This document shows, piece by piece, positions 18,028-32,587 of a stretch of DNA of 64,000 nucleotides. Each line of letters starts with the position of its first letter. Position 1 is the first letter of the stretch. The position numbers and the translations under genes were made by a program. Source of the DNA: Arthrobacter sp. zg-Y238 (GTDB lineage: Bacteria; Actinomycetota; Actinomycetes; Actinomycetales; Micrococcaceae); the NCBI RefSeq assembly GCF_024385525.1, contig NZ_JANFLU010000001.1, positions 558,001-622,000 of the forward strand, written 5' to 3'. The notes beneath the pieces were generated by a model. That model saw only the letters and a list, made by a program, of their open reading frames with translations, ran no database searches and was not told the DNA's origin.

Positions 18028-18071
18028 GGCGGTCCTTTTTTCGGTGTTCCGGGAAAACAAACTCATATGTG

Positions 18072-18189: not shown

Positions 18190-18864
18190 GTGGCGAGTAC
18201 CGGATACCGCGTAGTGGGCCAGATACGCGAGCAGATCCTGAGAGGCGAATGGGGGCCGGGCGTGCGTCTTCAACCGGTCGCGATGGCAGCAGTGTTGGGC
18301 ACCAGCAGCACGGTTGTCCGCGAGGCCCTGGCCCGCCTGGCCGGAGACGGCCTGGTGACCACAAAGCCCAATCGGGGCTTTTTCGTACGTGACCTTAATC
18401 TGCAGGAGCTTTCGGATCTGACCGAGCTGCGGTGCGTCACCGAGGAGCTGGCCGCCAGACTGGCCCTTAGCCGGGGGGATGTAGCGTGGGAATCCGAGCT
18501 CATCGCCGTGCATCACCGACTTGCACGCATACCGCGGCGTTCAGCCGAGGACCCCGGGCACGTGGATGCCGCATGGCAGAAGGCGCATAAGGCGTTCCAC
18601 CTCAAGTTGCTCGAGGCCTGTGCGTGCCAGCCGATGCTAAAGCTCGCATCTGATCTTTCCGATTCCACCGAGCTGTACCGCTGCTGGGCGGCGCCCCACG
18701 TGGAGCCCGGCAGCCGGGACGTGGAGGGGGAGCACCGGGCAATACTGAATGCGGCTTTGGGTCGGCATGCCGATGAGCTGGTCCGGCTGCTGCGGGAGCA
18801 CTACGAGACAACGGTGCGGGTGGTATTGGACTCAGGCATAGCCGAAGAGTCCGCAGGGAGCTGA
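18190..18864 (+). CDS. GntR family transcriptional regulator (FadR/FCD type)
   Basis: A 224-residue regulator. The winged helix domain (about 5-70) has the GntR pattern QIREQILRGEW, LQPVAMAAVLGTSSTVVREALARLAGDGLV and GFFVRD. The C-terminal helical FCD domain (about 80-210) carries histidines in FHLKLLEACA and EHRAILNAA that would bind a metal and an organic acid effector. The start is a GTG at 18190 preceded by GAGGGAG. It is divergent from the FAH/hydroxylase/VOC operon and is the obvious candidate for its regulator, with the effector likely a pathway intermediate. Confidence 0.88.
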   Translation: MASTGYRVVGQIREQILRGEWGPGVRLQPVAMAAVLGTSSTVVREALARLAGDGLVTTKPNRGFFVRDLNLQELSDLTELRCVTEELAARLALSRGDVAWESELIAVHHRLARIPRRSAEDPGHVDAAWQKAHKAFHLKLLEACACQPMLKLASDLSDSTELYRCWAAPHVEPGSRDVEGEHRAILNAALGRHADELVRLLREHYETTVRVVLDSGIAEESAGS

Positions 18865-18871
18865 ACTTCCA

Positions 18872-18898: not shown

Positions 18899-18923
18899 GG
18901 AACGTTTACCTCCGAAAGGTCGG

Positions 18924-19640
18924 TTACACGGCGCGGGTGACTCCGCCGTCCACACGGATATTCTGGCCCGTCACGTAGCTGGACTCTTGGCCGGCCAGGA
19001 ACCGCACCACCTGGGCTATTTCCTGGGTGCTGGCTGCCCGCCGCAAGGGGATCCGCTGAGTCCACTCGGGCGGCACAGTGCTTGGATCCTCCTTCGTGTA
19101 TCCAGGCAGAACGTTGTTCATTCGGATCCCCGCTGGCCCGAATTCGTCCGTGTAGAGCTTGGTAAAAGACGCCAGAGAGGCGCGGAACACGGCGGAAACC
19201 GGGTAGCGCGGGTTTGGTTCAAGGGGTGAACTTGTCGAAATGTTCACTATCGACCCGCCGCCGGCCTTCTCAAAATACGGGGTGACAATGCGGGCCATGC
19301 GCACCACGTTCATCAGGAACCCGTCCATTCCATCTTCCCAATCGGCATCCGACAGATCCAGGACCGGGCCGGACGCCCCGTGGCCGGTCCCGTTGATCAC
19401 TGCGTCAATCCGGCCAAACTCCGTCAGGGCCAGGTCAACAATGGACTGCAGATCCTGTACTGACCTGTTGGAGCCGGTCAGGCCAACGCCTCCGTGCTCC
19501 CGGGCCAGCTCTGCGGCCCGCCCGGAGGGCGAAAGTGCTGCAACCCGATACCCGTACGACGAAAGGTCCCGCACCACGGCTGCACCGATACCCGAGCCGC
19601 CGCCCACAACCACGGCTGCTCTTTTCAGTACTTCTGTCAT
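18924..19640 (-). CDS. SDR family protein with non-canonical active site
   Basis: A 238-residue SDR-fold protein with the cofactor motif VGGGSGIG (12-19) and the C-terminal VTGQNIRVDGG. The usual YxxxK catalytic pair is absent. Aligning back from LASFTKLY puts Ser149 and Arg153 (in SAVFRASL) where Tyr and Lys belong. A related SDR subgroup carries the same kind of VFRA motif, so this may be a family trait rather than decay. The reaction is therefore uncertain. It overlaps the TetR gene by four bases and is downstream of the large catabolic operon. Confidence 0.8.
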   Translation of the reverse strand: MTEVLKRAAVVVGGGSGIGAAVVRDLSSYGYRVAALSPSGRAAELAREHGGVGLTGSNRSVQDLQSIVDLALTEFGRIDAVINGTGHGASGPVLDLSDADWEDGMDGFLMNVVRMARIVTPYFEKAGGGSIVNISTSSPLEPNPRYPVSAVFRASLASFTKLYTDEFGPAGIRMNNVLPGYTKEDPSTVPPEWTQRIPLRRAASTQEIAQVVRFLAGQESSYVTGQNIRVDGGVTRAV

Positions 19641-20287
19641 TGTTTCTCCTCGTCGGCAGCAACAGCGGCGGCCCGCCGGGCTATAAGTGCCTCCACCGCC
19701 GAGGCGGAGAGATCGGCAAACTCTAGAAAATCGATATCGTCGCCTGAGGACGCGGCGATGTAGAAACCATCCGTAAGTGCCCGGCCCAGCACCACCATTT
19801 TCCGGCCGAATTCGGGGTCCACGGCAAGCACTGAGTCCGGGATCTGCGGTTCCACCCGCTCGACCATCAACTCGAACATCTGCTTGCGGACTTCCAAGTA
19901 CCGTTCACGGGCCAGGTTGCCGGTCAGCCGCTTTTCGAGTGCGAAGAGCAGCGCCAAAATCCAGAACGCCTCAGCCTTGTTTTCCGGATTTACCGACCCG
20001 CCGGCGGATCCGGCAATGCTGCGGCGGAGCAGGTCGCGGTTGGTGGGGCCGGTGTGGTCCGCTTTCCATGTTTCGAAGCAGTAATCGATCAGCTCCGAAA
20101 AGAGCTGTTCCTTGTTATTGAAGTGCCAGTAGACGGATCCCACCGGCAGCCCGGACAGGCGTGCCACCTCTGCCATGGTGGTTCCCTCGTAGCCGGCAGT
20201 CACGGCCAGGGTCAGGGCTGCATCCAAAATCGCCTGCTCGTTGCTGGGAGTGGACTGATGCGTGCGGCTTCTCCTTGTCACGGTCAT
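19637..20287 (-). CDS. TetR family transcriptional regulator
   Basis: A 216-residue TetR regulator. The N-terminal helix-turn-helix domain (about 15-62) reads ILDAALTLAVTAGYEGTTMAEVARLSGLPVGSVYWHFNNKEQLF. The C-terminal ligand domain is all-helical. The ATG at 20287 has a near-perfect GAGGAGGG ribosome site; the longer open frame upstream is not supported. It overlaps the following SDR gene by four bases and lies 93 bases downstream of the Baeyer-Villiger monooxygenase gene, so it either ends the large operon or has its own promoter in that gap. It is the nearest regulator for the operon. Confidence 0.87.
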   Translation of the reverse strand: MTVTRRSRTHQSTPSNEQAILDAALTLAVTAGYEGTTMAEVARLSGLPVGSVYWHFNNKEQLFSELIDYCFETWKADHTGPTNRDLLRRSIAGSAGGSVNPENKAEAFWILALLFALEKRLTGNLARERYLEVRKQMFELMVERVEPQIPDSVLAVDPEFGRKMVVLGRALTDGFYIAASSGDDIDFLEFADLSASAVEALIARRAAAVAADEEKQ

Positions 20288-20380
20288 TTCCCTCCTCTCT
20301 CGATCCGTAGTAGTACACGCCGACGATACGTTATTCCGATCTTGCCCTTTGTAGCCGCGGCGCCGGCCCCGGAGCCGCAT

Positions 20381-22360
20381 TCAGGCGAGGAACTCATAAT
20401 CCTCCGGGTCGATTGATTCGGTTGCGTCCCAGTATTCGATATTGGTGAATGGCCAAATCTGGGATACGCGGCCGGCGCTGTTCTGGTACCAGGTGCGCAC
20501 ATAGGGCTGTCCCCAGGCCATTTGCCTGTTTTCGCTGTCCACCCATGCCGTGAACCGTTCCAGCGCAGCCTGCTTGACGTCGAGCGCGCTTGCCCGACGT
20601 TCAAGAAGTTCGCGGACCGCTTTGAGGGCATATTCGCCTGCCCTCTCAAGCATAAAGTGGAGGCTTCCGGCCACGACCCCGCCAACGTTGGGTCCGTAGA
20701 CCATAAAGAAGTTCGGGAATCCCGGGACGGTGACTCCGTTGTACGCACGAGCGTCCCCTTCCCAAACGTCATGGATTTCGTGCCCGCCGCGGCCGAGAAT
20801 CTCCATTCCTTCGAGGTACTCGGAAGGGCGGAATCCGGTGGCGTAGACGATGATGTCGACGGCGTGTTCGGTGCCGTCTTCAGTCACGATGCCATTGGGC
20901 GTCAACTCACGGATTGGGGACGTAGCGAGCGTGGTGTGGGCGGAAGTGAGGGCCTTGGCCCAGACACCGTTGTCCCGCAGCATCCGCTTGGCCCCCGGCG
21001 GGTATACAGGGATTGCATGCTTGAGCAGCTCTGGATATCCGGCAAACTGCTCGGTGAGAATACGGGTCAGTTCCTCCCTGACCTCCTGGTTTTTCCGTGA
21101 CACGCTCAGAGGTGCGCCCTCCCAGCCGCTTTCGGCACGGACCGTGTGGAACCGGCCGGGGATTCCCAGGATCAGGACCCAAAGTCGGAACCATTGGGCG
21201 TAGTGCGGCACTTTGCGCGCCAGCCATGAGAATGTCTCACTCATTCCATCGTGGTAGTTCGGTGCGGGCAGCATCCATGGTGCACTGCGCTGGAAGACCA
21301 CCAAGCTGTCAACGTCATCACAGACGGCGGGGACAATCTGGTACGCGCTGGCACCGGTGCCGATGACAGCTACCCGCTTTCCGCGCCAGTCCACGGATTC
21401 GTCCCAGTCCTGGGAATGCATGGCAATGCCGGTGAATGAGTCCTGTCCGGGGAAATCCGGAATATTGGGAATGTCCAGTTGGCCGCACGCGCTGATAACC
21501 GCGTTGAACTCACGCGTTTTCTCGCCGCCGTCTCCGCTCCGGGTGGTCACTCGCCAGACGCGTGCCGATTCGATCCACTCGGCCCGGACCAGACGGCTGC
21601 CAAACTCGATGCTTTCATCCAAGCCTGCCCTGCGCGCCACTGTTTCGAGATACTCCCGGATTTCACACCCCTGGGCGAACTGATGGGGCCAGTCAGCGCG
21701 CTGCGCAAAAGAGTATGAGTAGCCAAAGGTCGGTGTGTCCAGGCGTACTCCGGGATACCGGTTTTTCTGCCAGGTGCCGCCCAAGCGGTCTCCGGCCTCG
21801 ATGATTGTCAGAGGAACGCCGGCTTGGCTGAACCGATGTGCCGCGGCAATGCCTGCTACACCCGAGCCGACGATAAGCACCGAGAAGTCCCGCCCGTCGG
21901 CGATGTCCTCAAAGCGCCATTGCGGGGCGCCGCCTTTGTTGGGTGCCAGGTCAAGCTCGTGCTGCAGCATGCCGGTCCACTCGCTGTGTCCATTGCAGAG
22001 GAACTCAAGAATCGTGTTGGTGTCGTCCGCGGAGAGGATACCCACGCTGGTGATTTCCTCGTCGCGCAGACGGCGCAACGCGCTGAGGGCCGTGCGCCGC
22101 CCCCGTTCTTGTTGGTCGGGGGTCATCCCGCCGTGGGGGTGGTTGACGGTATCAACGGGAACCAGCGGCGGGCGCAGGTTCGGTGTAAGGATGGTTGTGT
22201 CTCCCGTGGCGGCTGCCAGTGCCGCAAGGAGCGCCGGGAGGTCGGCCCCTTCGACAATCCGCAGAAGTTCCTCATCCGACTCGATGACCGGTTCGTAAGT
22301 GTCCTGCCAGAACAAGTCATCGGCGGCAGCCTGTACGGAGCGCACCCCGGCGGCGCTCAT
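20381..22360 (-). CDS. Type I Baeyer-Villiger monooxygenase (4-hydroxyacetophenone monooxygenase-like)
   Basis: A 659-residue flavoprotein that would insert an oxygen next to a carbonyl, turning a ketone into an ester using NADPH and O2. An N-terminal extension of about 155 residues precedes the first dinucleotide fold GSGVAG (165-170), as in the HAPMO subgroup. The BVMO fingerprint FxGxxxHxxxW reads FTGIAMHSQDWD (309-320), and the NADPH fold GTGASA is at 334-339. It is the last gene of the 11-gene operon, overlapping the ABC ATPase gene by four bases. An aryl ketone is a likely substrate by subgroup; the divergent HSL-type esterase could hydrolyse the ester product (inference). Confidence 0.88.
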   Translation of the reverse strand: MSAAGVRSVQAAADDLFWQDTYEPVIESDEELLRIVEGADLPALLAALAAATGDTTILTPNLRPPLVPVDTVNHPHGGMTPDQQERGRRTALSALRRLRDEEITSVGILSADDTNTILEFLCNGHSEWTGMLQHELDLAPNKGGAPQWRFEDIADGRDFSVLIVGSGVAGIAAAHRFSQAGVPLTIIEAGDRLGGTWQKNRYPGVRLDTPTFGYSYSFAQRADWPHQFAQGCEIREYLETVARRAGLDESIEFGSRLVRAEWIESARVWRVTTRSGDGGEKTREFNAVISACGQLDIPNIPDFPGQDSFTGIAMHSQDWDESVDWRGKRVAVIGTGASAYQIVPAVCDDVDSLVVFQRSAPWMLPAPNYHDGMSETFSWLARKVPHYAQWFRLWVLILGIPGRFHTVRAESGWEGAPLSVSRKNQEVREELTRILTEQFAGYPELLKHAIPVYPPGAKRMLRDNGVWAKALTSAHTTLATSPIRELTPNGIVTEDGTEHAVDIIVYATGFRPSEYLEGMEILGRGGHEIHDVWEGDARAYNGVTVPGFPNFFMVYGPNVGGVVAGSLHFMLERAGEYALKAVRELLERRASALDVKQAALERFTAWVDSENRQMAWGQPYVRTWYQNSAGRVSQIWPFTNIEYWDATESIDPEDYEFLA

Positions 22361-23190
22361 GCGAGCACCTGCCTGGCCGGCTCAACCTCGCCGTTGATGT
22401 TGGTCTTGGCGAACTGCACTCGTTCGTAGACCTCCGCGCGCAGTTCGGCAAAGCGCGGCGCCGAGCGGGTCACCAGTTGGTCGCGTTCCTCCGGCAGATC
22501 AATCTTGATGTCGTTCTGGATTACGGTGGGCGAGCTTGAAAGGACCAGCACGCGTTCAGCCAGGTACACGGACTCATCGATGTCGTGGGTCACGAACAGG
22601 ATGGTCATGTTGTGTTCTTTCCAGATTCGGCGGACGAGGTCCTCAAGCTCGGCACGCGTCTGGGCATCGACGGCGGCGAAGGGCTCATCCATCAGCAGCA
22701 CACTCGGCCGGGCAGCGACGGCGCGGGCAATCGCCACACGCTGCTGCATTCCGCCCGAGAGCTGCCACGGATACTTCGCTCCGGCAGCGCCGAGTCCCAC
22801 GGCTTCCAAGGCCTCGCGCACACGTCCAGCACGCTCGGACTTGGGGACCCCGCCCGTTTTCAGCGGAAGACCCACATTGGCGGCAACTGTCATCCACGGG
22901 AACAGGCTGCGCCCGTATTCCTGGAACACAACGGCCATGCCGGCGGCGGGCCCGGAGACCGGGGACCCATCCAGCGCCACCTCACCCGAGGTTGTCTGCA
23001 TCAGGCCGGCGATGCACTTAAGAAGCGTTGTCTTCCCGCTTCCGGACGGGCCCACCAGACAGGCGAATTCACCGTCATGCAGATCGAAGGTCAGGGACCG
23101 AACCGCTTCGAACCGGGTGCCTGATCCTGTCTGGTAAATCTTCTGGACCCGCTTTACGCTGAGCCGGACCTGCTGGGATCCACTAGTCAT
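22357..23190 (-). CDS. ABC transporter ATP-binding protein (NitT/TauT type) of the catabolic operon
   Basis: A 277-residue ATPase with Walker A GPSGSGKTT (47-55), signature LSGGMQQRVAIARA, Walker B VLLMDEPFAAVD and the switch histidine in FVTHDIDES. It is of the SsuB/TauB type. It overlaps the first permease gene by eight bases and the BVMO gene by four, so transport and catabolism are made from one message. The C-terminal 40 residues beyond the core are slightly longer than usual. Confidence 0.92.
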   Translation of the reverse strand: MTSGSQQVRLSVKRVQKIYQTGSGTRFEAVRSLTFDLHDGEFACLVGPSGSGKTTLLKCIAGLMQTTSGEVALDGSPVSGPAAGMAVVFQEYGRSLFPWMTVAANVGLPLKTGGVPKSERAGRVREALEAVGLGAAGAKYPWQLSGGMQQRVAIARAVAARPSVLLMDEPFAAVDAQTRAELEDLVRRIWKEHNMTILFVTHDIDESVYLAERVLVLSSSPTVIQNDIKIDLPEERDQLVTRSAPRFAELRAEVYERVQFAKTNINGEVEPARQVLA

Positions 23191-23956
23191 TTTCGTTCTC
23201 CTTCAATCCTTCGTACCAGGCAAGAATTCGTTTCTGAATCCAGTGGAAAACCACTGAAAGGACGACGCCAATAATGCCCAGCAGCAAAATACCGCTCCAC
23301 ATTTCAGGTATGGCGACGCGGTTCTGGAAATTGATTGTCCAGTGGCCGATCCCGTCGGTGGACGCGAACATCTCCGAAACCACCATCAGGATGAGCGCCA
23401 CGGCCAGGCTCTGGCGGATTCCCGCCATGATCTGCGGCGAAGCGGCCGGGAGCACGAGATAGCGCATGCGGTCCAGCTTTTTGAGCCCTATGACTTTCGC
23501 TGTGTTCTGCAGGACCTCATCGATGGACGTCACACCGGCAACGGTGTTCAGCAGAATGGGCCAGATGCAACTGCAGACGATCAGGGTGATCTTCATGGCG
23601 TCATTGATCCCGATCAGCAGCAGGAGCACCGGGATGAGGATGGTAGAGGGAACCGCTCGAATGAACTCGAAGAGCGGCTCGAACAGCCACCGGATCCAAC
23701 GCACGTAGCCGATAATCACACCGATGGTGACGCCGGCGACGATGGACAGCCCCAGCCCCGCAAGAAGCCTGCCAATGCTGGGGAGCACATCGGACATCAG
23801 GCGTTCGGAAAACCAGATGTGGAAAAAACGGTCGGCCAGCACAGCCGGTTCGGGGATGAAGAAGTTTGTCTGAACGGACGTGTAGCCGATCCATGCTGCC
23901 AGCAGGATCAGGGGGAGCCCCAGAAAGTATCCGGCTCTCTTCAGTGTTGATATCAC
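23183..23956 (-). CDS. ABC transporter permease 1 (NitT/TauT type)
   Basis: A 257-residue permease with about six hydrophobic segments and an EAA-type loop around residues 155-175 (TAKVIGLKKLDRMRYLVLPAASPQIMAGIR). It pairs with the second permease encoded just upstream with a four-base overlap, suggesting a heterodimeric membrane channel instead of the homodimer usual for one-permease NitT/TauT systems. Confidence 0.88.
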   Translation of the reverse strand: MISTLKRAGYFLGLPLILLAAWIGYTSVQTNFFIPEPAVLADRFFHIWFSERLMSDVLPSIGRLLAGLGLSIVAGVTIGVIIGYVRWIRWLFEPLFEFIRAVPSTILIPVLLLLIGINDAMKITLIVCSCIWPILLNTVAGVTSIDEVLQNTAKVIGLKKLDRMRYLVLPAASPQIMAGIRQSLAVALILMVVSEMFASTDGIGHWTINFQNRVAIPEMWSGILLLGIIGVVLSVVFHWIQKRILAWYEGLKENEND

Positions 23957-24777
23957 GCTGCTCCTCCGCGTACGGACTCATGCCAGAAAAGGGATTTACG
24001 CTCGATGAACCGCATGAGTGAGTTGATTGCGATTCCCAGCAGGCCGCTGGTGATGATCAGGGCATAGATGGCCGGTGCCGATCCGTTGATCTGGGCAAAG
24101 GCAACCTCCTGGCCAAGACCCGGTGTGCCGACAATCAGCTCAACACTGATGGCAAGGACCAGGGCCACCGTGGCGGCCAGGCGCAGGCCGGTCATGAGGT
24201 ACGGAAGCAGCGTCGGGAAAACGACGTACCGGACCCGCTGGAGGAAACTCAGGCGCAGGGTCCGAGCTGTGTCCATTGCAACCCGGTCGAGGTCTGCAAT
24301 GCCGTACAGCACCTGAATCAGTACGACCCAGAAACAGGCGTAAATGATAATCATCAGCTCGGATCCGAGGCGGGGGCCGAAAAGCAGCGCAGCGAGGGGG
24401 ATCAGCGCCACGGCCGGAATGGGACGCAGGAATTCGATGGTTGAATGCGTTGCCCGAACTAGGAACCGGCTGGAGCCGATGATGACGCCCAGGACCAGGC
24501 CGCCCACCGAGGAAATCAGGACGCCCAGTATCCAGGCACGCAACGTGTGTCCTGTGGCTACCCAGAACTGCGTGTAGGCCAGGTTCTCGAAGAACCGTGC
24601 AAAGACCACCGTGGGCGGCGGCAGGTGCCGGGGATCAACAATCCCCGTGACGGAAGCCGCCTGCCAGATGCCTAGGAATCCGAGGATCCCGCAGGTTCCC
24701 AGAAGCGCCGGCCCAAACCTGAGCCAGAGCAATGAACGTCGGGCGCCAAGCGGCACCGATGTCGTCGGGTTGGTCAT
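23953..24777 (-). CDS. ABC transporter permease 2 (NitT/TauT type)
   Basis: A 274-residue permease with six hydrophobic segments and an EAA-type loop (DTARTLRLSFLQRVRYVVFPTLLPYLMTGLR) around 155-185. The ATG at 24777 is preferred because AAGGGGAG lies nine bases upstream and the first hydrophobic segment then starts about 20 residues in. The longer frame has no support. An 82-base gap with a stable hairpin separates it from the binding-protein gene upstream. Confidence 0.87.
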   Translation of the reverse strand: MTNPTTSVPLGARRSLLWLRFGPALLGTCGILGFLGIWQAASVTGIVDPRHLPPPTVVFARFFENLAYTQFWVATGHTLRAWILGVLISSVGGLVLGVIIGSSRFLVRATHSTIEFLRPIPAVALIPLAALLFGPRLGSELMIIIYACFWVVLIQVLYGIADLDRVAMDTARTLRLSFLQRVRYVVFPTLLPYLMTGLRLAATVALVLAISVELIVGTPGLGQEVAFAQINGSAPAIYALIITSGLLGIAINSLMRFIERKSLFWHESVRGGAA

Positions 24778-24817
24778 GATGACCAGCTCCCCTTTCAGTT
24801 TTTGTGATCGTGCCCAG

Positions 24818-24852
24818 GGCGGGCGGCCGTTCCCACGGAGAGGCCGCCTGCC
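24818..24852 (-). promoter_or_regulatory. Intergenic hairpin between binding-protein and permease genes
   Basis: An 11-bp stem with one G-U pair (24818-24828 with 24842-24852) lies in the only sizeable gap of the operon, and no U-tract follows. Hairpins at this place commonly stabilise the upstream message so that binding protein is made in excess of the membrane parts. That role is inferred. Confidence 0.55.
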
Positions 24853-24859
24853 TCCGCCG

Positions 24860-25858
24860 TTACTTGCTCCAGACCGTGGCATCAAGGTCCGGGCGCGTCT
24901 CGACGATGCCGTGTTTCGTCATGAGATCGGCAAACTGTTTCAGGGCGTCAACATCCAGGTGGGCGTTCCACGCAATGAAGTCTGTTTTGGCCGCCATCTC
25001 GGGGGACGTTCCGAGAACTTCGGGCAGTAGGTCCCGCACCTCGTCCTGATGCTCTTCTGCGTAGCTGAGGGTCTTGTCCAGGGCGGAAATGAAACTTTCC
25101 ACCACCTCCGGATCCTGTTCGACGAGGGCGCCGCTGGAAGCGATGACCAGTTCCGCGCCGCCGAGCCCGGCCTCCTGGATAAAGTCGCTAATGACAGCAC
25201 CGCCGTCAGCGGTGATCTGCTGCATGAACGGAGGGCCCACCATTCCGGCCTGGATCTGGCCGCTCTCAAGCTGGGCTCCGACCTCGTTGAAACCGAGCTG
25301 CACAAAGGTCACCTTGTCGGGGTCGCCGCCGTCGAGCTCAACGGCTTCGCGGATACCGATGTCCCCGATACTGCCCAGGGCGTTGATGGAGACTGTTTTG
25401 CCCTCCAGGTCCTTCGCCCTGTGAATGTCGGAGTTGGGACCGACCATCACCGCGACGGAGTCTTCGACCATTTCCGGCCGATTGCTGGCGTATCCGGAGA
25501 CGATCTTCAAGTCGAGCCCCTGGGCCGTGGCCACCAGTGGGGTGGTGGGGCTCGAGAGCATGAAGTCCAGGCTGCCGGAACTCAACGAGGGCAACTGGGC
25601 GGCGCTTCCCTGTCCCAGGAGCATTTCGAGGTTCAGGCCTTCCTCTTCGAAATAGCCCTTGTTAACGCCCAGCTGAATAGCAGCCACAGCCGACGAGGGG
25701 AACAGGCCAATCTTGACGTCGCGGAGCTCGGAGTCGGATGCACTGCCGCCTGCACCTGTGTCCGCGCCTCCGGAGATGGAACCGGATGCGCAACCGGTCA
25801 GGGTGAGTGCGGCGGCGAGCGCGCCGCTGCCTAGCAAGCGGAGGGTTCGAGTGGTCAT
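24860..25858 (-). CDS. NitT/TauT-type ABC substrate-binding lipoprotein of the catabolic operon
   Basis: A 332-residue extracellular binding protein of the NMT1-like superfamily. The signal peptide ends in the lipobox LTLTGC, followed by a Gly/Ser/Ala linker. The core opens with VKIGLFPSSAVAAIQLGVNKGYF, the typical first strand and helix of this family. The ATG at 25858 overlaps the stop of the mhpA-like gene by four bases. Being embedded between an aromatic hydroxylase and two permeases, it most likely captures the aromatic growth substrate (inference). Confidence 0.88.
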   Translation of the reverse strand: MTTRTLRLLGSGALAAALTLTGCASGSISGGADTGAGGSASDSELRDVKIGLFPSSAVAAIQLGVNKGYFEEEGLNLEMLLGQGSAAQLPSLSSGSLDFMLSSPTTPLVATAQGLDLKIVSGYASNRPEMVEDSVAVMVGPNSDIHRAKDLEGKTVSINALGSIGDIGIREAVELDGGDPDKVTFVQLGFNEVGAQLESGQIQAGMVGPPFMQQITADGGAVISDFIQEAGLGGAELVIASSGALVEQDPEVVESFISALDKTLSYAEEHQDEVRDLLPEVLGTSPEMAAKTDFIAWNAHLDVDALKQFADLMTKHGIVETRPDLDATVWSK

Positions 25859-27570
25859 GACGTGAGTTCTCTCTTCCTTGAGGAAACGAAGTGTGAAGAA
25901 TCTGTCCCGGGGCCGGACCCCGCGGGGAGTGGAGTGCCATCTGCCGGGAGCAGATAGGCACTGCCGAAGACCTTCTGCAGAGTACGGTTCAGGTCCTGAG
26001 CCAGGCATTCGGCGGCAATGACGTGGTCAGGCCGGACGATCGCGACGGAAACCGGACGCGCATGGAACCAGGACTTCAACATTCCCGAAGCGTCTCCGAC
26101 CACACACACGCCCGGGGTTGCATGGGCGGCGGTCCAACGGAGCTGGGTTGCCGGCACCGCATGGACGAGGGTGGCGTCCAAAGCGGTCAGGGCAGCGAGG
26201 GAATCCGCGGAAAGGAAATGCTCCGGGTTGTTGTTCCAGACGAAGATCCGCCATCCGTCACCCGTGACGTCGTCGAGCAGGACATCCTCTCCATCAGCGG
26301 TGCGGACGTGCGGCTGCGGGAACAGCGTGCCCGTGCCCGGCTGCACTCCGTCCTCGATGGGCACCGACTTCGACTCCGGCCACTTTCCCGGGACGACCAC
26401 GCCGCGGGTGTACTTCGGCATGGGTTTGAATCCCTGGCCCGAGACGTAGGACTTGAGTTTTGGCAGGCGGTCGATCACGGCGGCTGCGGTGTCACGTACT
26501 GCAGACGTGACCTTGCTCCGGTTCGTCACGACCTTGGACATTCCTACCGACAGGTCGATCATTGCCTTGACATGGTCGCGGCGTTCCTCCGCATAGGTGT
26601 CGAGCAGCCGGTCATCGGCCAGCCCTCGGACAACTGCCGGCAGCTTCCAGCCAAGGTTCAGGGCGTCACGGATGCAGGAATTCCATCCCTGCCCGGCGAC
26701 CACCGGCATTACATGGGCGGCGTCGCCGGCCAACAGGACCCGCCCGTCCCGGAAACGGTCCGCAAGGCGCGCGTGGTGCTCGTAGACGCGGCGGCGGATG
26801 ACATCCAACTCGGCCGGCTCCGCCACATGGTCCCGGAGCAGTTGATGGAGAAATTCGTCGCTGTTGATTAGGTCGTCGTCCTCGCCGTCCAGCAGCATGA
26901 ACTCCCACCGGCGTATGCCGTGCGGCAGGCTTAGGGTGGCGTATCCCCGGGTGGGGTCCCCGCCGAAGACCGCGTGGGGTGTCCCCAGCGGATCATTGGC
27001 GACGTCGATCACCAAACCGCGTTGGCGCCGGGTCTCGCCGGTGAAGGGAATCCCCAGCTTTTGGCGGGTGAATGAGCGCCCGCCCTCGCAACCCACCAGG
27101 TATTCCGCGCGAATGGAGGAGTCTTTGCCTTGGGAATGCACCGTGACAGTGACTCCGTCGGCGTCCTGAACCACATCGGTGGCCTTGGCTCCGAGGCGGA
27201 CCTCGACGCAGTCATAGCGCTGTGCGCCTTCCAGGAGGATCTGGTCCACCAGCGGCTGCACGAATCCGTTGCGGCGGGGCCAGCCAAACTCGCGGGTGGT
27301 TGGATTGATTCCGGCGATGATCTTGCCCGCACCGTTGACGATGCGGATCTGCTGATCGGGGACAGTGTGCTCAAGCACCTTGTCCACCAGTCCCAGCCCC
27401 TGCATGGCGCGCAGCGACTCGTCGTCGATGCCAACGGCCCGCGGGTAGTCGATGAGCTTGTCCCGTGCCTCGATGAGGATGGTACGGATGCCCCGGCGGC
27501 CCAGCAGATTGGCCAGCGTCAGCCCGGTGGGTCCCGCTCCGATGATCAGGATTTCGGTTTGTTCCGTCAT
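25855..27570 (-). CDS. mhpA: 3-(3-hydroxyphenyl)propionate hydroxylase-like flavoprotein (MhpA family)
   Basis: A 571-residue FAD monooxygenase close to MhpA, which hydroxylates 3-(3-hydroxyphenyl)propionate to the 2,3-diol. The FAD fold is IIGAGPTG, the middle motif is the CEGGRSFTR type, the MhpA-specific stretch PHAVFGGDPTRGYATLSL is present, and the second FAD motif reads LLAGDAAHVMPVVAGQGWNS. Length is slightly above the 554 residues of the Escherichia coli enzyme. It overlaps the aldolase and the binding-protein genes by four bases each. Because a Baeyer-Villiger enzyme is in the same operon, the true substrate may differ from 3HPP. Confidence 0.85.
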   Translation of the reverse strand: MTEQTEILIIGAGPTGLTLANLLGRRGIRTILIEARDKLIDYPRAVGIDDESLRAMQGLGLVDKVLEHTVPDQQIRIVNGAGKIIAGINPTTREFGWPRRNGFVQPLVDQILLEGAQRYDCVEVRLGAKATDVVQDADGVTVTVHSQGKDSSIRAEYLVGCEGGRSFTRQKLGIPFTGETRRQRGLVIDVANDPLGTPHAVFGGDPTRGYATLSLPHGIRRWEFMLLDGEDDDLINSDEFLHQLLRDHVAEPAELDVIRRRVYEHHARLADRFRDGRVLLAGDAAHVMPVVAGQGWNSCIRDALNLGWKLPAVVRGLADDRLLDTYAEERRDHVKAMIDLSVGMSKVVTNRSKVTSAVRDTAAAVIDRLPKLKSYVSGQGFKPMPKYTRGVVVPGKWPESKSVPIEDGVQPGTGTLFPQPHVRTADGEDVLLDDVTGDGWRIFVWNNNPEHFLSADSLAALTALDATLVHAVPATQLRWTAAHATPGVCVVGDASGMLKSWFHARPVSVAIVRPDHVIAAECLAQDLNRTLQKVFGSAYLLPADGTPLPAGSGPGTDSSHFVSSRKRELTS

Positions 27571-28313
27571 GATGCCTCCTTGAGAGCCGCGAGGGAGGCG
27601 CGGGCCTGTTTGCTGATGAACATCAGGTCGATGCCCAGTCCCACATAGTCCAGGCCGGTCTGCAGTATCTGCCCGGCGGCGAAGGCGGGGTCGCTGCAGT
27701 ACAGGCCCACTTTGACTCCGTGGACCCGTGCCCTTTCGGCGAGGTGGGCGACGGCGTCGGCAACCGGGCCGTCGGACCAGTCCGGGCGCCCGGGTAGGCC
27801 GTAGGAGACCGCCAGGTCGGAGGGTCCGATGTAGAGCGAGTCCACACCGTCCACACTGAGTATCCGGTCTGCTGCTTCAACACCGGCAGCGGTTTCAATT
27901 TGCACCACTGTGGATACAGCTTCGTTCCCCGCAGCGCAGTAGTCGGCTCCGGAGTAGAGGGCGGGCCGGCTGGGGCCAAGGCTGCGTCGACCGAGCGGCG
28001 GGTACTTTGTAGCCGATACCAGTGCCTGTGCCTGTTCCGCGGATTCGACCGTGGGAGCGACTATCCCGCGGGCGCCGCTGTCCAGCAGCCGCCCGATGAC
28101 ACCGGAGTCAATGCAGGCGACGCGGGCAAACAGGTATGCATTGCCTCGGGGTATGGACCGCAGCATGTTGCTTGCCTGGTCCAGTCCGATCTCTCCGTGC
28201 TGCAGGTCGAGCATGACGCCGTCGTAACCGGCGTCCAACGCGTTTTCAGCGGCAGCCATTGAGGGTGTGGCAATGTGAAGCAGCACAGGCGCTGCCGACT
28301 GGCCGAGACTCAT
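27567..28313 (-). CDS. HpcH/HpaI family pyruvate aldolase
   Basis: A 248-residue class II (metal-dependent) aldolase. The family wording is GYDGVMLDLQHGEIGLDQ, LFARVACIDSGVIGRLLDSGARGIVAPTVESAEQA, and the active-site glutamate in VVQIETAAGVEAADRI. These enzymes split 4-hydroxy-2-oxo acids into pyruvate and an aldehyde. In the operon it follows the hydratase MhpD, so it takes the place of MhpE, which belongs to a different (DRE-TIM) aldolase family and usually works with the acetaldehyde dehydrogenase MhpF. No MhpF is present here. Confidence 0.88.
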   Translation of the reverse strand: MSLGQSAAPVLLHIATPSMAAAENALDAGYDGVMLDLQHGEIGLDQASNMLRSIPRGNAYLFARVACIDSGVIGRLLDSGARGIVAPTVESAEQAQALVSATKYPPLGRRSLGPSRPALYSGADYCAAGNEAVSTVVQIETAAGVEAADRILSVDGVDSLYIGPSDLAVSYGLPGRPDWSDGPVADAVAHLAERARVHGVKVGLYCSDPAFAAGQILQTGLDYVGLGIDLMFISKQARASLAALKEAS

Positions 28314-28762
28314 TTGGCCTCTCCTGCGGCTATGCGCTGTGCGTGGGCAGCGGCGTTTGCCGCGCCGAAAATCGGAGCGATCTCACGGCGATGGATAAGC
28401 CACCGGCCATCCACTTGGGTGTACTGCTCACGGAACTCTCCCACGCTGGCCGGATGGAGCGGATCGGACTGACTGTCCCGAAAGGTCATGTAGTAGGTGG
28501 TGCCGCACAGGACGCCGTTTTCGAAGGCCAACCGGGTTCCCCCGGAAAAGTGCCGGACGACCCCCGCATCCATCTTTGCCCGGCGTTCGCCCCAGGCCTT
28601 CACGGCCTCCCGGCCGTCCATCGTTCCCAGCGGCCCGGTGGACACCGCGTCCTCCGCGTACAGCGTGTACAAACGGTCGGCATGCCCATGGTCAAGCAGC
28701 CAGTGGTGCTCCGTGACAAGCTGTTCAATTTCAGCGCGTATTTCGCTGGTGACTTCAGGCAT
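28310..28762 (-). CDS. SnoaL-like / NTF2-fold protein
   Basis: A 150-residue protein of the SnoaL-like NTF2-fold group: an N-terminal helix pair ending in HWLLDHGHADRLYTLYAEDAV, then TMDGREAVKAWGERR and a C-terminal strand pair ending in DGRWLIHRREI. The fold serves isomerases, dehydratases and cyclases as well as small subunits of ring-hydroxylating enzymes. No catalytic assignment is possible. The ATG at 28762 overlaps the mhpD stop by eight bases, and its stop overlaps the aldolase start by four. Confidence 0.8.
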   Translation of the reverse strand: MPEVTSEIRAEIEQLVTEHHWLLDHGHADRLYTLYAEDAVSTGPLGTMDGREAVKAWGERRAKMDAGVVRHFSGGTRLAFENGVLCGTTYYMTFRDSQSDPLHPASVGEFREQYTQVDGRWLIHRREIAPIFGAANAAAHAQRIAAGEAK

Positions 28763-29555
28763 GGTGTAGATCCTTGGAATCGAGAGTGGCTGACACGGAA
28801 CCGAATCCGTGCGAGTAAACAGCGGTGTAGGGGACATCGGTCTCCCAATCGACGATCATGCCGATTGATCCGGAGAGTAGGATTTCGCCGGCACGCAGCG
28901 GCTTATTGATCCGAAGCGATGTCTCGGCGAGCCACTGGATGGCGTTGACCGGACCGGCCAGGACATTCCTGCCGATGCCCCGGGTCACTTCCTCGTCGCC
29001 GCGGTACAGGATCATTTCGACCTCGTTGAGGTCGATTTCACCGTAAGGTTTGCGGACCGCCCCGGTCACCACGCCCTCACAGGCCGCGTTGTCCGCGACG
29101 GTATCGAGAATGCTCATTCCGTAGTTGTGGTACCGGCAGTCCACGAGCTCTATCGCGGGCACCACGTAATCGATGGCAGCTTCAACGGCAGCGAGGTCCG
29201 AGGAGAGCAGGTCTTCCTTGAGGACGAAAGCGAGCTCCGCCTCGATCTTCGGTTTGATGAATGCGGATCTCGGACGGACCACGCCTCCCGGGAAAACCAT
29301 GTCCTCGAGAATGATGCCGTAGTCGGGCTGATCCACACCGGCCTTTTTTTGCACCATGGGATTGGTCAGGCCGACTTTGCGGCCAACACGCCGAAGCTTC
29401 TGCTCCTGGACCCGCCGTTGGGTGTTGATCTCGGAGATTGCATAGGCGGCAGCCAGATCGCCACCGGGCAGCTGATGCCGGATGTGGTCAATCGGTGTGA
29501 GGTTCTGCCGGGCCGCATAGAGGTCGTCGGCAATTTTTTGGATAATCGGTGACAT
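28755..29555 (-). CDS. mhpD: 2-keto-4-pentenoate hydratase (MhpD family)
   Basis: A 266-residue hydratase that adds water to 2-hydroxypenta-2,4-dienoate to give 4-hydroxy-2-oxovalerate. Family blocks are GRKVGLTNPMVQKKAGVDQPDYG, the metal-binding EAELAFVL, and PAIELVDCRYHN; the C-terminus has the characteristic AGEILLSGSIG. Length fits MhpD. It lies three bases after the mhpC-like gene and provides the substrate for the HpcH/HpaI aldolase two genes downstream. Confidence 0.92.
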   Translation of the reverse strand: MSPIIQKIADDLYAARQNLTPIDHIRHQLPGGDLAAAYAISEINTQRRVQEQKLRRVGRKVGLTNPMVQKKAGVDQPDYGIILEDMVFPGGVVRPRSAFIKPKIEAELAFVLKEDLLSSDLAAVEAAIDYVVPAIELVDCRYHNYGMSILDTVADNAACEGVVTGAVRKPYGEIDLNEVEMILYRGDEEVTRGIGRNVLAGPVNAIQWLAETSLRINKPLRAGEILLSGSIGMIVDWETDVPYTAVYSHGFGSVSATLDSKDLHHA

Positions 29556-29558
29556 CCG

Positions 29559-30425
29559 TCACCCCTTTCTTGCCAGGAAATCGAGGGCGCATTCGTTGAA
29601 GGCCTCTGGGTCTTCCCACTGGGGCCAGTGGGCTGCGTTGCGGATAACCAGCAGTTCGCCGTCGGGTATTGCCGCTGCGAACCGTTCGCCCGTCTCGATG
29701 CCGCCCGAGGGCTCATGATCCGTCCACACGAGCAGAGTCGGGACGGTCAGGGCCGCGTAATCTTCCTCAGTGACTCGGTTGCGGAAGCGGATCTCCGGCT
29801 GCTGCAGGGCCAGGATGTGATCCATGGAGCGGGCAAAACCCTCCCGGCTGTAGACGGCCTGGCGCATGTGCACTAGCTCGTCAGTGATGAGCTCGGGATC
29901 ATGGATGACTACCTGCAGCCTCGCTTTGACGTTGGTAAAGGTTGGATTCTCGACGGCCTCGCGGCTGACCGAACGCGCCTTACCCATCGCTGAGGTTTTG
30001 ATGATCTGCCCGCCCGGAGCGCTCAGGATCAAGGTCCTGACCCGATCCGCGTGTGACTGGGCAAACTTCAGTGCGATCCATCCGCCGAGCGATTCACCGC
30101 AGAGATGTGCCCGGTCGACATTCAGGGCATCCAGCAGCCCGACCAGGTGTTTTTCATAGTCCGCTATCTCGAGGTCGGCTCCTGCCAGACTGGAGAATCC
30201 GTGGCCGGGGTAGTCGTAGGCGATCACGGTGTGGGTCCGGGCCAGCGCCCGAATGTTCTGTGTGAAGGCCTCGAGGTGACCGCTGGTACCGGCCATCATC
30301 ACGATGGTGTCGCTGCCCTCGCCCACCGACAGGACGCGGGTACGCCAGCCCCCGATCTCGAGATAGAACAGTTGATGGGGGAGGTCCCCGATCTGCTGCC
30401 ACAGCGACTCAAGCTGATGGCTCAT
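29559..30425 (-). CDS. mhpC: Alpha/beta hydrolase, meta-cleavage product hydrolase (MhpC-like)
   Basis: A 288-residue alpha/beta hydrolase, exactly the length of Escherichia coli MhpC. The nucleophile is Ser112 in CGESLGGW, a probable acid lies in LLVWTDHEPSGG, and the catalytic histidine is in NAAHWPQWEDPEAFNE, a C-terminal signature shared with MhpC. It would hydrolyse the carbon-carbon bond of the ring-cleavage product made by MhpB, releasing a dicarboxylic acid and 2-hydroxypentadienoate. It overlaps mhpB by four bases. The side chain accepted may differ from that of the 3HPP pathway. Confidence 0.85.
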   Translation of the reverse strand: MSHQLESLWQQIGDLPHQLFYLEIGGWRTRVLSVGEGSDTIVMMAGTSGHLEAFTQNIRALARTHTVIAYDYPGHGFSSLAGADLEIADYEKHLVGLLDALNVDRAHLCGESLGGWIALKFAQSHADRVRTLILSAPGGQIIKTSAMGKARSVSREAVENPTFTNVKARLQVVIHDPELITDELVHMRQAVYSREGFARSMDHILALQQPEIRFRNRVTEEDYAALTVPTLLVWTDHEPSGGIETGERFAAAIPDGELLVIRNAAHWPQWEDPEAFNECALDFLARKG

Positions 30426-31366
30426 GCAGCGCTGTCCGTGACTGCTGCAACTACACCGAATCCGGCACCCCAGGTTTCAACCGGCCAGTAGCGGTCAACC
30501 TGGAAGCTGTAGCTGCCGGCAGTGGACAGGGCGCTGAAAGCAGCGATCCAGGTGCGCACCTCATGTGCTCCGCTGCCGCCTTCGGCGCCGAACCACTCGT
30601 TGGTCCACGAGTCCACGACAGTCATATCGCCGGCACGGAAGACGTCGAGCACCTTGGTGTCCCACTCGGCATTGAGGGGCTGGGTGGTCGCCTTTCCCTC
30701 AGCAAACTTCCGGATGTTGTTGAGCATCGTGGATTCGCGGACCTCGCGCTGTTCCGGCGTCATTTCCAAGTGGATGAGCCGTTCCTTCACCTCGTCGGAC
30801 GCGCCGTCCCAGACCGGGATGGGAGGGTTGTGAGACAGCCCGCCGGAGGCGAAGATCAGAACCTTCTTGTCGAGTTTCTGCGCGGCCCGGCCCACTGCTT
30901 CGCCAAAGGCACGAACACGGTTCATGGGTGTGAGCGGCAGCCCCACAGAGTTCACGAAAATGGGTACAAACGGATTCTTGAAGTCGTGTCCGTAGACAAA
31001 CTCCAGGGGCTGTAGTACCCCGTGATCCACCTGAAGCCGTTCGGACCGGGCGATGTCGATACCGTCCTCGAGGATGAGTCGGTGCAGCTCCCGCGCGGTA
31101 TCGCTGTCAACGGGCAGCGGGCCGGCAGCGGTGCCCCAGTCTCCGACTCCGTTGGCCTGCGCACCTACGCAGAACGGGGGCATCATCTCGTACATCACGC
31201 CATTGAAGTGATCCGGTCCCAGCGCGATGGTGACGTCCGGCGCGAAATCCTCAACGAAAGCCCGGACGTCGTCAATTGCCGAATTGATTTCAGCAAAAAT
31301 CGTTCCGCCCGGATCTACGTTTCCGAAGGAGGGGGCGTGGGACATTGCGGCCACTGCAAGAGTCAT
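30422..31366 (-). CDS. mhpB: 3-carboxyethylcatechol 2,3-dioxygenase (MhpB family)
   Basis: A 314-residue class III (LigB-type) extradiol dioxygenase that opens a catechol ring beside the hydroxyls. It matches MhpB along its length: SHAPSFG at the N-terminus, LGPDHFNGVMYEMMPPFCVGA, the catalytic histidine in QVDHGVLQPLEF, a second in GGLSHNPPIP, and ending in HEVRTWIAAFSAL. It is the first gene of the 11-gene operon and follows a promoter region with clear inverted repeats. It is unrelated in fold to the VOC dioxygenase at 14.7 kb, so two ring-cleavage solutions sit within 17 kb. Confidence 0.93.
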   Translation of the reverse strand: MTLAVAAMSHAPSFGNVDPGGTIFAEINSAIDDVRAFVEDFAPDVTIALGPDHFNGVMYEMMPPFCVGAQANGVGDWGTAAGPLPVDSDTARELHRLILEDGIDIARSERLQVDHGVLQPLEFVYGHDFKNPFVPIFVNSVGLPLTPMNRVRAFGEAVGRAAQKLDKKVLIFASGGLSHNPPIPVWDGASDEVKERLIHLEMTPEQREVRESTMLNNIRKFAEGKATTQPLNAEWDTKVLDVFRAGDMTVVDSWTNEWFGAEGGSGAHEVRTWIAAFSALSTAGSYSFQVDRYWPVETWGAGFGVVAAVTDSAA

Positions 31367-31439
31367 GGCGTCATTTCCTCTCAGGCCTCTGGGGCCATTT
31401 GATGAGTTTTCGGCGAGTCTCGGTTCTGGACTACGTCGT

Positions 31440-31492
31440 CTAGAATGTTGATTCTAGTGAATTACATCACATCTGGCTAGAGGCAATGTGAT
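31440..31492. promoter_or_regulatory. Operator-like inverted repeats in the mhpB / esterase divergent region
   Basis: Two inverted repeats lie side by side: CTAGAAT-GTTG-ATTCTAG (31440-31457, perfect 7-bp arms) and ATCACAT-N13-ATGTGAT (31466-31472 with 31486-31492, perfect 7-bp arms). Both arms of the second are followed within a few bases by CTAG on the plus strand. The block is A/T-rich and lies 74 bases upstream of the mhpB start, where an activator or repressor of the operon would bind. The regulator is unknown; the TetR protein at 19.6 kb is one candidate. Confidence 0.6.
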
Positions 31493-31591
31493 CTAGACAA
31501 CAGTGGAGCCCCTCCGGCCGATCGTGTGGCCGCTGCGCAAGCCCCAAACGGCGAACCAGGAACCCAGTAACGAACAAGGAGAAGGACATCC

Positions 31592-32587
31592 ATGAACGGA
31601 ACACCGGTACGGCCGCCCTACGACCCGCAGATTTCCGAAATCTTCCGGGCCAAGTACGCCGGCGGCGCCGGCTTCACCATGGAATCGCTGGCAGCGGTCC
31701 GCCAGGCATCAACGTCGTCTCCGTCCGACGTCGCAGGCCTGCTGAAGTCCGCGGGCCTGCCAATCGTGGCGGAGCACCATGAGATCCCCGGATACCAGGG
31801 CGGCCGAATCGGGCTGTCCGTCTTGAGGGGAACACCCACCCCCACCGGTCCGCTGATCTATCACAGCCACGGCGGAGGCATGGTGGCAGGAGACCGTTGG
31901 AGCGGGATAACAGCGTTCCTGGACTGGATTGAGATGTTTGATGCCGCCATCGTCACTGTCGAGTACAGATTGGCCCCTGAGTTTCCCGACCCCTTTCCCC
32001 GCGAAGACGCCTACGCGGGACTGGAATGGACTGTTGCCCAGGCGGAACGGCTCAACCTTCGCAGACAGCCGCTGATTGTCGCCGGACAGAGTGCTGGCGG
32101 CGGCATCACGGCATCCCTGGCCTTAATGGCGAGGGACCGGAGGGGCCCGCGGATTTCGGGACAGCTTCTGCTAAGCCCCATGCTCGATGACCGCGACGCC
32201 ACCGAATCCTTGCGCCAGTTTGACGGCACGGGTGGATGGGACCGGCAGGCGAACCGGTTTGGCTGGAGTGCGCTCCTCGGGCAGGACCACGGGCGGCGGG
32301 CGACGGATCCGTATGCGGCACCAGCACGGACGGGGAACCTCGCCGGCCTGCCGCCGGCTTTTCTCGAGTGCGGCACCGCGGAGGTCTTCCGTGATGAAAC
32401 CGTCGCCTACGCTGCGGATTTGTGGGCTGCCGGTAATGATGCCGAACTGCACATGTGGGCCGGCGGCTTCCACCGCTACGACCAGCTGGCACCGGACAGT
32501 GAGATAACGGCCAGCACCATCAGGACCCGCGCCGCATGGATGGGCCGGCTACTGCGTGAACGGTCTGCTACCCGTGTCCGACTTTGA
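31592..32587 (+). CDS. HSL-type alpha/beta hydrolase (esterase)
   Basis: A 331-residue esterase of the hormone-sensitive-lipase family. The oxyanion motif is HGGG (93-96), the nucleophile Ser167 is in GQSAGGG, the acid is probably the glutamate in CGTAEVFRDETV, and the histidine is in AGGFHRYDQL. The ribosome site AAGGAGAAGG is strong. It is divergent from the mhpB-led operon and shares its promoter region, so it is a good candidate to hydrolyse the ester formed by the Baeyer-Villiger monooxygenase (inference from context and enzyme types). Confidence 0.85.
   Translation: MNGTPVRPPYDPQISEIFRAKYAGGAGFTMESLAAVRQASTSSPSDVAGLLKSAGLPIVAEHHEIPGYQGGRIGLSVLRGTPTPTGPLIYHSHGGGMVAGDRWSGITAFLDWIEMFDAAIVTVEYRLAPEFPDPFPREDAYAGLEWTVAQAERLNLRRQPLIVAGQSAGGGITASLALMARDRRGPRISGQLLLSPMLDDRDATESLRQFDGTGGWDRQANRFGWSALLGQDHGRRATDPYAAPARTGNLAGLPPAFLECGTAEVFRDETVAYAADLWAAGNDAELHMWAGGFHRYDQLAPDSEITASTIRTRAAWMGRLLRERSATRVRL

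Follow-up and report, generated by a model that had tools for sequence, protein, structure and literature searches.

A conserved actinobacterial gene set with a probable role in the uptake of a plant-type aromatic ketone, its cleavage at the keto group and the separate ring-opening degradation of both halves

The stretch analysed here (the window) comprises 64,000 nucleotides of the 3.55-Mb genome of Arthrobacter sp. zg-Y238 (handle G000), positions 558001–622000 of contig NZ_JANFLU010000001.1 (C1). It carries a gene set, conserved in soil actinobacteria related to Arthrobacter, which probably takes up an aromatic ketone of a plant type, cleaves it at the keto group and breaks down each half with ring-opening enzymes of its own. 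The core is a run of eleven genes on the minus strand (20381–31366), in the order mhpB-C-D-SnoaL-HpaI-mhpA-binding protein-permease-permease-ATPase-Baeyer-Villiger monooxygenase (BVMO). It is flanked by genes for a TetR regulator, a short-chain dehydrogenase/reductase (SDR) and a divergent HSL-type esterase. Just downstream lie four genes (14652–18864) specifying a GntR/FCD regulator, an FAH-family hydrolase, a second flavin adenine dinucleotide (FAD) hydroxylase and an extradiol dioxygenase. These are referred to as module 2, and the mhp-type genes as module 1. That the whole of 14.6–32.6 kb works as a single system for the catabolism of a two-ring aryl ketone is a tentative reading, with a probability of about 0.45.

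As we infer the individual reactions and the flow between the modules, the ATP-binding cassette (ABC) importer would take up a two-ring aryl ketone, the SDR would interconvert alcohol and ketone, and the BVMO would insert oxygen between ring and carbonyl, giving an ester which the HSL-type esterase would hydrolyse to a phenol and an arylalkanoic acid. The acid half would be hydroxylated by MhpA, cleaved in the ring by MhpB, hydrolysed by MhpC, hydrated by MhpD and split by the HpaI-type aldolase. The phenol half would pass to the second FAD hydroxylase, then through a C23O-like cleavage to a 2,4-dioxo acid, and finally to an acylpyruvate hydrolase of the FAH type. Our best guess for the substrate is a dihydrochalcone-like compound, other diaryl ketone spacers being possible; a ketone Ar-CO-CH2-CH2-Ar' would give an arylpropionate used by MhpABCD enzymes. 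MhpB-type enzymes are known for catechols with a carboxyethyl side chain, and since MhpA-MhpB-type enzymes are known for aryl-propionates, the acid half would be the natural input of module 1. The two-module scheme offers a role for every gene except that of the SnoaL-like protein, which was found in every module-1 cluster read. It also accounts for the observation, detailed below, that the BVMO (at least 49% identity) and module 2 were never apart in 295 genomes.

All eleven genes, which the sequence-only reading had named from mhpB to the BVMO, are present, and domain matches bear out the families it assigned. The junctions measure -4, 3, -8, -4, -4, -4, 82, -4, -8 and -4 bases (negative values denoting overlaps), so that nine of ten are overlaps or spacers of at most 3 bases and the single gap is 82 bases, in agreement with the lengths given earlier; these values use chosen internal starts for the SnoaL-like protein (28762), the binding protein (25858) and permease 1 (24777). 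From its chosen start the binding protein begins in the manner of a lipoprotein (MTTRTLRLLG...LTGC). Behind the BVMO, a gap of 93 bases leads to the TetR gene, which overlaps that of the SDR by 4 bases; both had been placed downstream and the esterase opposite, and all three were found there, TetR first and SDR second. The four module-2 genes had gone unmentioned.

Conservation was studied in a family set of 295 genomes (G-numbers denote genomes and L-numbers loci). The 13-gene order from mhpB through the BVMO to TetR and SDR is kept in six of them, from three genera (G000, G279, G172, G272, G151 and G126), and these same six are the genomes with a BVMO of at least 74% and an MhpB of at least 86% identity. 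Protein identities are 68–91% in four of the five further genomes and 99–100% in the remaining one, a genome of the window's own species. Since the order recurs in five further genomes, the arrangement exceeds chance. The refuting condition proposed with the sequence-only reading, a lack of BVMO and transporter beside mhp in relatives, thus did not refute it.

Looser versions were also seen. G104 and G135 have mhpBCD-SnoaL-HpaI-mhpA at 53–65% identity, accompanied by TetR, SDR and a BVMO from a different lineage; in G104 an MFS transporter precedes mhpB in place of the ABC importer, and in G135 the BVMO locus is some 40 kb from mhpB. G691, of another family, has all 13 genes at 55–77% in the same order with insertions. 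Two further genomes outside the family carry partial sets: G686 has the gene set without the ABC importer and with MFS genes nearby, and G787 has the mhp set with TetR and SDR and an MFS gene before mhpB. An MhpB search at E 1e-70 gave matches in 5 of 337 genomes of the order and 37 of 335 of the class (the window's own genome counted in both); apart from the own genome, G691, G787 and G686, these showed 39–51% identity. The stretches read were those of ten genomes with such order or class matches and of two more family genomes. A scan of genome contigs with the BVMO alone gave no relative, and one with an alignment of the VOC dioxygenase gave 33 loci. The contig of Arthrobacter sp. 11W110_air, a cultivable strain, has this cluster as well.

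The two modules are linked by co-occurrence. The identity limits for the BVMO (at least 49%) and for MhpB (at least 63%) were picked after gaps had been seen at 49%/41% and 63%/44%, respectively; all other limits were E-values fixed before each search. At E 1e-60 the BVMO matched in 55 genomes, and the 28 below 49% were left out of the count. The VOC dioxygenase of module 2 (E 1e-60) occurs in 27 of the 295 genomes, and a BVMO of at least 49% in exactly those 27, which span ten genera; the second hydroxylase (E 1e-90) occurs in the same 27 and in G275. The family-wide count of module 2 covers these two enzymes. In 23 of the 27, both enzymes are at most 40 kb away from a BVMO; of the remaining four, G148 and G087 are fragmented assemblies, and in G126 and G074 the distance is about 100 kb. 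All eight genomes with an MhpB of at least 63% are among the 27 (Fisher P 1.7e-9, a value that ignores relatedness), as are 4 of the 16 other MhpB-bearing genomes (P 0.047, with the same proviso).

In three clusters, two of them from other families, the modules are merged. G691 has the order FAH-mhpB'-mhpB-C-D-SnoaL-HpaI-mhpA-binding protein-permease-permease-ATPase-mhpA2-BVMO-carboxylesterase-TetR-SDR-GntR; here the second hydroxylase stands between ATPase and BVMO, the carboxylesterase adjoins the BVMO, and FAH and a second LigB-type dioxygenase occupy the opposite end. This second LigB gene (L061, 10473–11396) lies beside FAH, where other genomes use VOC, and may have replaced the ring-cleavage enzyme of module 2 without being homologous to it. 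In G686 the interval from mhpA to the BVMO holds FAH and the second hydroxylase. Arthrobacter sp. MAHUQ-56 has, on one strand, mhpB-C-D-SnoaL-HpaI-mhpA-binding protein-permease-permease-ATPase-TetR-SDR-(VOC fragments)-FAH-hydroxylase-BVMO; full-length VOC copies are found elsewhere on its contig (L101, L117). In G151 the dioxygenase is about 7 kb before mhpB, and hydroxylase and FAH are about 9 kb behind the SDR gene.

The sequence-only reading had joined the genes into a single pathway. Its kernel, a conserved catabolic unit with importer and BVMO, is supported, whereas one linear route for one ring is not, the module-2 hydroxylase and dioxygenase being present in all 27 of 295 genomes with a BVMO of at least 49%. 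In such a route a one-ring aromatic ketone or alcohol would be turned by SDR and BVMO into an ester, whose hydrolysis would give a phenol to be hydroxylated and meta-cleaved by MhpABCD, with module 2 separate. The gene set and the esterase fit this, and SDR, BVMO and TetR do travel with mhp. It is nevertheless quite unlikely, as it leaves unexplained both the co-occurrence and the merged clusters, and as enzymes of the MhpB and MhpC type expect a side chain on the ring. An acetophenone had been among the suggested substrates; a simple one would yield a phenol with no carbon side chain, ill-suited to an MhpB-type enzyme.

The spacer upstream of mhpB shows little conservation outside a few blocks. 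Most distinct among these is the palindrome CTAGAAT-N4-ATTCTAG, a candidate operator that we take to be bound by TetR. It is the sole match in the window at up to two mismatches (0.01 expected). Twelve related loci (L032–L036, L046, L047, L058, L061–L063 and L118) were compared with 80 others (1.2 Mb), 26 overlapping loci being excluded. At up to one mismatch there were 11 matches in 10 of the 12 related loci and none in the 80; at up to two, 19 matches against 1. The palindrome (up to two mismatches) precedes mhpB, or in G787 the transporter gene leading into mhpB, in all 12 module-1 loci, namely the window and 11 of the set just listed. It also precedes TetR in G104 and G135 and SDR in G787, and it recurs in loci of other families.

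Several observations weigh against a single two-module system. The palindrome was sought before module 2 in the window as a tie between the modules and was found before mhpB only, and module 2 has a GntR regulator of its own. In G104 and G135 module 2 is far from mhp and about 20 kb from a second BVMO, and in G126 about 110 kb separate it from the mhp-linked BVMO and about 98 kb from a second one; module 2 thus has a part in another pathway too. The roughly 48 kb around the G686 cluster showed neither a VOC nor a second LigB gene, and the VOC copy inside the MAHUQ-56 cluster consists of fragment matches only (L118, 4779–5169). G787 possesses mhpBCD-SnoaL-HpaI-mhpA-TetR-SDR without such a BVMO anywhere in its genome (best match 36%). 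The HSL esterase stands beside mhpB in the window's genus only: orthologues (57–59%) occupy the same place in G172 and G272, and none was found in the stretches of G151 and G126. Lastly, MhpC is just 28% identical to its E. coli namesake, so the acid released need not be succinate and the acid half may not be plain propionate.

The separate GntR, the restriction of the palindrome to mhpB in the window and the distance between modules in G126, G104 and G135 would equally suit two independent neighbouring pathways, mhp/ABC/BVMO under TetR and hydroxylase/VOC/FAH under GntR, co-located since both serve plant phenolics; so would the mild enrichment of unrelated canonical MhpB among the 27 genomes, noted above. 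We regard such independence as rather unlikely, in view of the merged gene orders in G691, G686 and MAHUQ-56 and of the presence of module 2 in all eight module-1 genomes.

A further point against independence comes from the 19 of the 27 BVMO genomes that have no module-1 MhpB. BVMO/VOC clusters were read in 13 of these and at further named loci; L049, L050, L098 and L102 are examples of the cluster type. Many contain a VAO-type oxidase, an NtaA-type monooxygenase, an HpaB-type hydroxylase, a PrpD-family protein, a carboxylesterase, module-2 genes and often an NMT1-type importer, not all being present in each. The closest solved relatives of the VAO-type oxidase are an 'oxidoreductase', VAO and eugenol oxidase. 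These clusters look suited to the breakdown of alkylphenols or diarylmethanes, bisphenol F being a published example (PMC12724174), and the cluster type may itself be undescribed. With the L049 gene as query (E 1e-60), the oxidase was found in 8 of 15 genomes searched and not in G000, G279, G172, G272, G691, G686 or G787, a search that a distant oxidase would escape. The other pathway therefore does not explain module 2 in the window's genus, G691 and G686, where the modules adjoin. In G151 and MAHUQ-56 the VAO-type and mhp-type clusters stand together.

In a tree, the MhpB proteins from the 12 module-1 loci group together in a single clade (support 100/99), separate from those of E. coli, of MhpE/MhpF-bearing clusters and of Rhodococcus plasmid clusters; immediately outside this clade is the second LigB protein of G691. 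With E. coli queries, neither MhpE nor MhpF was found at 11 of the 12 module-1 loci (the window, L118 and nine others; L032 left out), and both were found at L055, L059, L071 and L072. The window genome gave no MhpE (best TIGR03217 score 32.6 bits against a cut-off of 286; a Gordonia enzyme scores 547 bits) and no match to the MhpF model TIGR03215, which gave none over its cut-off in the E. coli control genome either. An HpaI-type aldolase, which presumably stands in for MhpE, lies within the gene run at every module-1 cluster read. Since MhpE and MhpF were not found, MhpB falls in a separate clade and G151 carries both kinds of cluster, the idea that the run encodes the canonical 3-hydroxyphenylpropionate pathway is not supported. 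Nor is module 1 a simple replacement of canonical mhp, as G151 has such a cluster (L059) beside it. Automatic naming calls for caution here, given that mhpB passes the cut-off of the 3-carboxyethylcatechol dioxygenase model though the pathway appears to be different.

The identity of MhpA bears on one more alternative, in which the substrate is a fused aryl ketone resembling 1-indanone, tetralone or chromanone. The BVMO would form a lactone, and the esterase would open it to a hydroxyphenylalkanoate that keeps its side chain and enters MhpA-D, module 2 being meant for a second ring or another substrate. This would explain a side-chain-requiring MhpB after a BVMO, and SDR, BVMO and esterase are the classic triad for cyclic alcohols. 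Yet the window MhpA is 43% identical to that of E. coli, a meta-hydroxyphenyl hydroxylase, whereas a 2-hydroxyphenyl route, which we take the Rhodococcus and Gordonia clusters to represent, would need a hydroxylase of their type, only 26–28% like the window's; module 2 is again unexplained. We consider this alternative very unlikely.

The Rhodococcus and Gordonia plasmid neighbourhoods of MhpB were rejected as instances of the same system, being of another cluster type with different hydroxylases. Three of them (L054, L055 and L056; MhpB about 50% identity) carry an LLM flavin oxidoreductase together with a hydrolase of the isochorismatase or cysteine type, perhaps a RutA/RutB-like pair, and may be meant for a nitrogen-containing aromatic.

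A single clade (98/98) unites the BVMOs of the ABC-bearing clusters, and those of G104/G135 and G686 fall elsewhere in the tree (G686 on a long branch of uncertain position). The mhp-linked BVMOs occupy three regions of the tree, a pattern that repeated recruitment of a BVMO would produce. On a Rhodococcus antarcticus plasmid (L057, NZ_CP110616.1) an importer and a BVMO in the same order lie near gentisate-pathway genes and a flavin hydroxylase; from this locus, importer and BVMO look like a cassette joined to varied ring-cleavage routes. The G+C content is 61–64% at 16001–32000 of the window compared with 64–69% in the remainder (56–60 kb also has 63.8%), and the BVMO occurs in 5 of the 24 listed genomes of the window's own genus; low G+C and patchy distribution together suggest a horizontal gain of 16001–32000. 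The fullest version of our reading goes beyond a single catabolic system: a system of actinobacteria, so far undescribed and spread by horizontal transfer, that lets them use dihydrochalcone-like plant polyphenols aerobically. In it a BVMO separates the rings and each half has a dedicated module, that of the arylpropionate half being an MhpE/F-independent MhpABCD set with HpaI aldolase. Taken with all its parts, this is a speculation that we hold to be unlikely.

Table 1. Features of the two modules, the importer and their neighbours (window coordinates; scores in bits)
Feature	Position	Strand	Basis or remark
Conserved palindrome CTAGAAT-N4-ATTCTAG, candidate TetR operator	31440..31457	.	before mhpB
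mhpB-like class III (LigB) extradiol dioxygenase, module 1	30422..31366	-	NCBIfam NF009910 431, cut-off 291
mhpC-like meta-cleavage-product hydrolase	29559..30425	-	Pfam Abhydrolase_1; 28% to E. coli MhpC
mhpD-like 2-hydroxypentadienoate hydratase (FAH superfamily)	28755..29555	-	NF008461 205, below cut-off 350; 40% to E. coli MhpD
SnoaL-like protein (SnoaL_4)	28310..28762	-	PF13577, scanned on longer open reading frame 28310-28837
HpcH/HpaI-type hydroxyketoacid aldolase	27567..28313	-	PF03328; TIGR02311 139, below cut-off 369
mhpA-like FAD hydroxylase	25855..27570	-	NF004831 552.5, cut-off 546; best-scoring NF004828 675, below 853
NMT1/SsuA-type substrate-binding lipoprotein	24860..25858	-	PF09084
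ABC permease 1	23953..24777	-	PF00528, scanned on longer open reading frame to 24885
ABC permease 2	23183..23956	-	PF00528
ABC ATPase	22357..23190	-	PF00005
Type I Baeyer-Villiger monooxygenase (FMO-like)	20381..22360	-	N-terminal extension of about 158 aa; both BVMO fingerprints, two Rossmann motifs
TetR regulator	19637..20287	-	PF00440
SDR dehydrogenase	18924..19640	-	PF13561
GntR/FCD-type regulator between both modules	18190..18864	+	PF00392 and PF07729
FAH-family hydrolase, module 2	17173..18027	-	PF01557 220; HpaG/HpcE-like structures
Second MhpA-like FAD hydroxylase, module 2	15534..17144	-	PF01494; NF004831 459, below cut-off 546, on longer open reading frame 15534-17846
C23O-like VOC extradiol dioxygenase, module 2	14652..15524	-	PF00903; TIGR03211 110, below cut-off 320
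HSL-type esterase, divergent	31592..32587	+	PF07859; LipP1 154, below cut-off 350

The individual proteins were also compared with known sequences and structures. MhpB of the window (38.5% identity to E. coli MhpB) keeps D114, H115, H179 and P181 and has S for K267; His115 and His179 are what we take to be the class III dioxygenase residues. Among solved structures the MhpC-like protein is closest to HsaD/BphD (up to 91 bits), followed by MhpC (84.5 bits), and the aldolase to the hydroxyketoacid aldolase 6r62 (155 bits). The NMT1/SsuA-type importer is complete within the run, with a binding protein, two permeases (BPD_transp_1) and an ATPase; in the PDB the binding protein is weakly matched by a pyrimidine-binding protein (46 bits), and its solved relatives give no ligand. 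The FAD domain of the BVMO begins near residue 158 of 659, and its PDB matches are steroid, cyclohexanone and phenylacetone monooxygenases. Its fingerprints, as defined in the available text of PMC9836352, lie at residues 194 and 309, and its Rossmann motifs at 165 and 334. In module 2, the second hydroxylase is 34% identical to E. coli MhpA, and the GntR regulator has orthologues of 80–81% in G172 and G272 and of 49–63% elsewhere. His136, His190–192 and Glu242 of the VOC dioxygenase are invariant in an alignment of six sequences, and three of these are presumably the metal ligands. A further NMT1-type binding protein and ABC ATPase, unrelated to the eleven-gene run, stand beside a DUF6282 protein at 973–4662 of the window.

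If the two-module reading is true, it provides a genetic handle on the breakdown of two-ring phenolic ketones by soil actinobacteria and a source of BVMOs that may accept bulky aryl ketones. It predicts that the BVMO reaction leads to a phenol and an arylpropionate and that genes of one 18-kb region degrade the two. Splitting of two-ring ketones has been described for the pollutants bisphenol F and anthraquinone, in sources available in part; a tie to an MhpA-MhpB pair was not among the matches listed.

Compared with known systems, module 1 resembles the E. coli mhpABCDFE genes (NC_000913) in its hydroxylase (43%), class III dioxygenase (38.5%), hydrolase (28%) and hydratase (40%); E. coli has MhpE, MhpF, MhpT and MhpR, whereas the window cluster has the HpaI aldolase, SnoaL, ABC importer, BVMO, TetR and SDR. 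The 4-hydroxyacetophenone monooxygenase (HAPMO) converts an aryl ketone to an aryl ester, and like the BVMO here it has a long N-terminal extension before the FAD domain, a HAPMO feature; an mhp module is not part of its pathway. L057 shares the order binding protein-permease-permease-ATPase-BVMO (BVMO 41%), with gentisate-pathway genes in place of mhp.

The ifc/fde genes for A-ring cleavage of isoflavones and naringenin (PMC11069340) use an FAD hydroxylase and a glyoxalase-family dioxygenase, as does module 2, a likeness in architecture only; in the available part of that source a BVMO is not mentioned, and cupin proteins act later. The lumichrome (lum) pathway (PMC12752717, available in part) was rejected, its P450, thiamine pyrophosphate (TPP) and Rieske enzymes not being among the genes here.

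The bpfABCD genes of Sphingobium yanoikuyae DN12 (PMC12724174) provide, as far as the available text goes, a described precedent for a BVMO and hydrolase (BpfCD) that split a diaryl ketone into two single-ring products. That pathway starts with a PCMH-type oxidase, and the window genome has no VAO-type match at E 1e-60; built-in ring-cleavage modules or an ABC importer are not described in the accessible portion. The sequence-only reading had not recognised its gene combination as a described system, and among the matches listed, mostly from open-access literature, no described pathway was found to join MhpA/MhpB-type genes to a BVMO; the combination is apparently new and undescribed within aromatic catabolic clusters. 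The judgement draws on listings and the openings of abstracts, and two genome surveys containing both terms (PMC13055320, PMC13101518) were among the listed matches. In anthraquinone degradation by Sphingobium sp. AntQ-1 (PMC9836352, likewise available in part), the first BVMO belongs to the luciferase-like kind (type II), XylE is the enzyme that cleaves catechol, and neither an MhpA-MhpB pair nor an ABC transporter is mentioned in that part. A type I BVMO and a hydrolase are nonetheless encoded there on one plasmid with meta-cleavage genes including mhpDEF, and are induced together with them, mhpDEF along with two BVMOs, which makes AntQ-1 the nearest published union of a BVMO and mhp-type genes among the matches listed.

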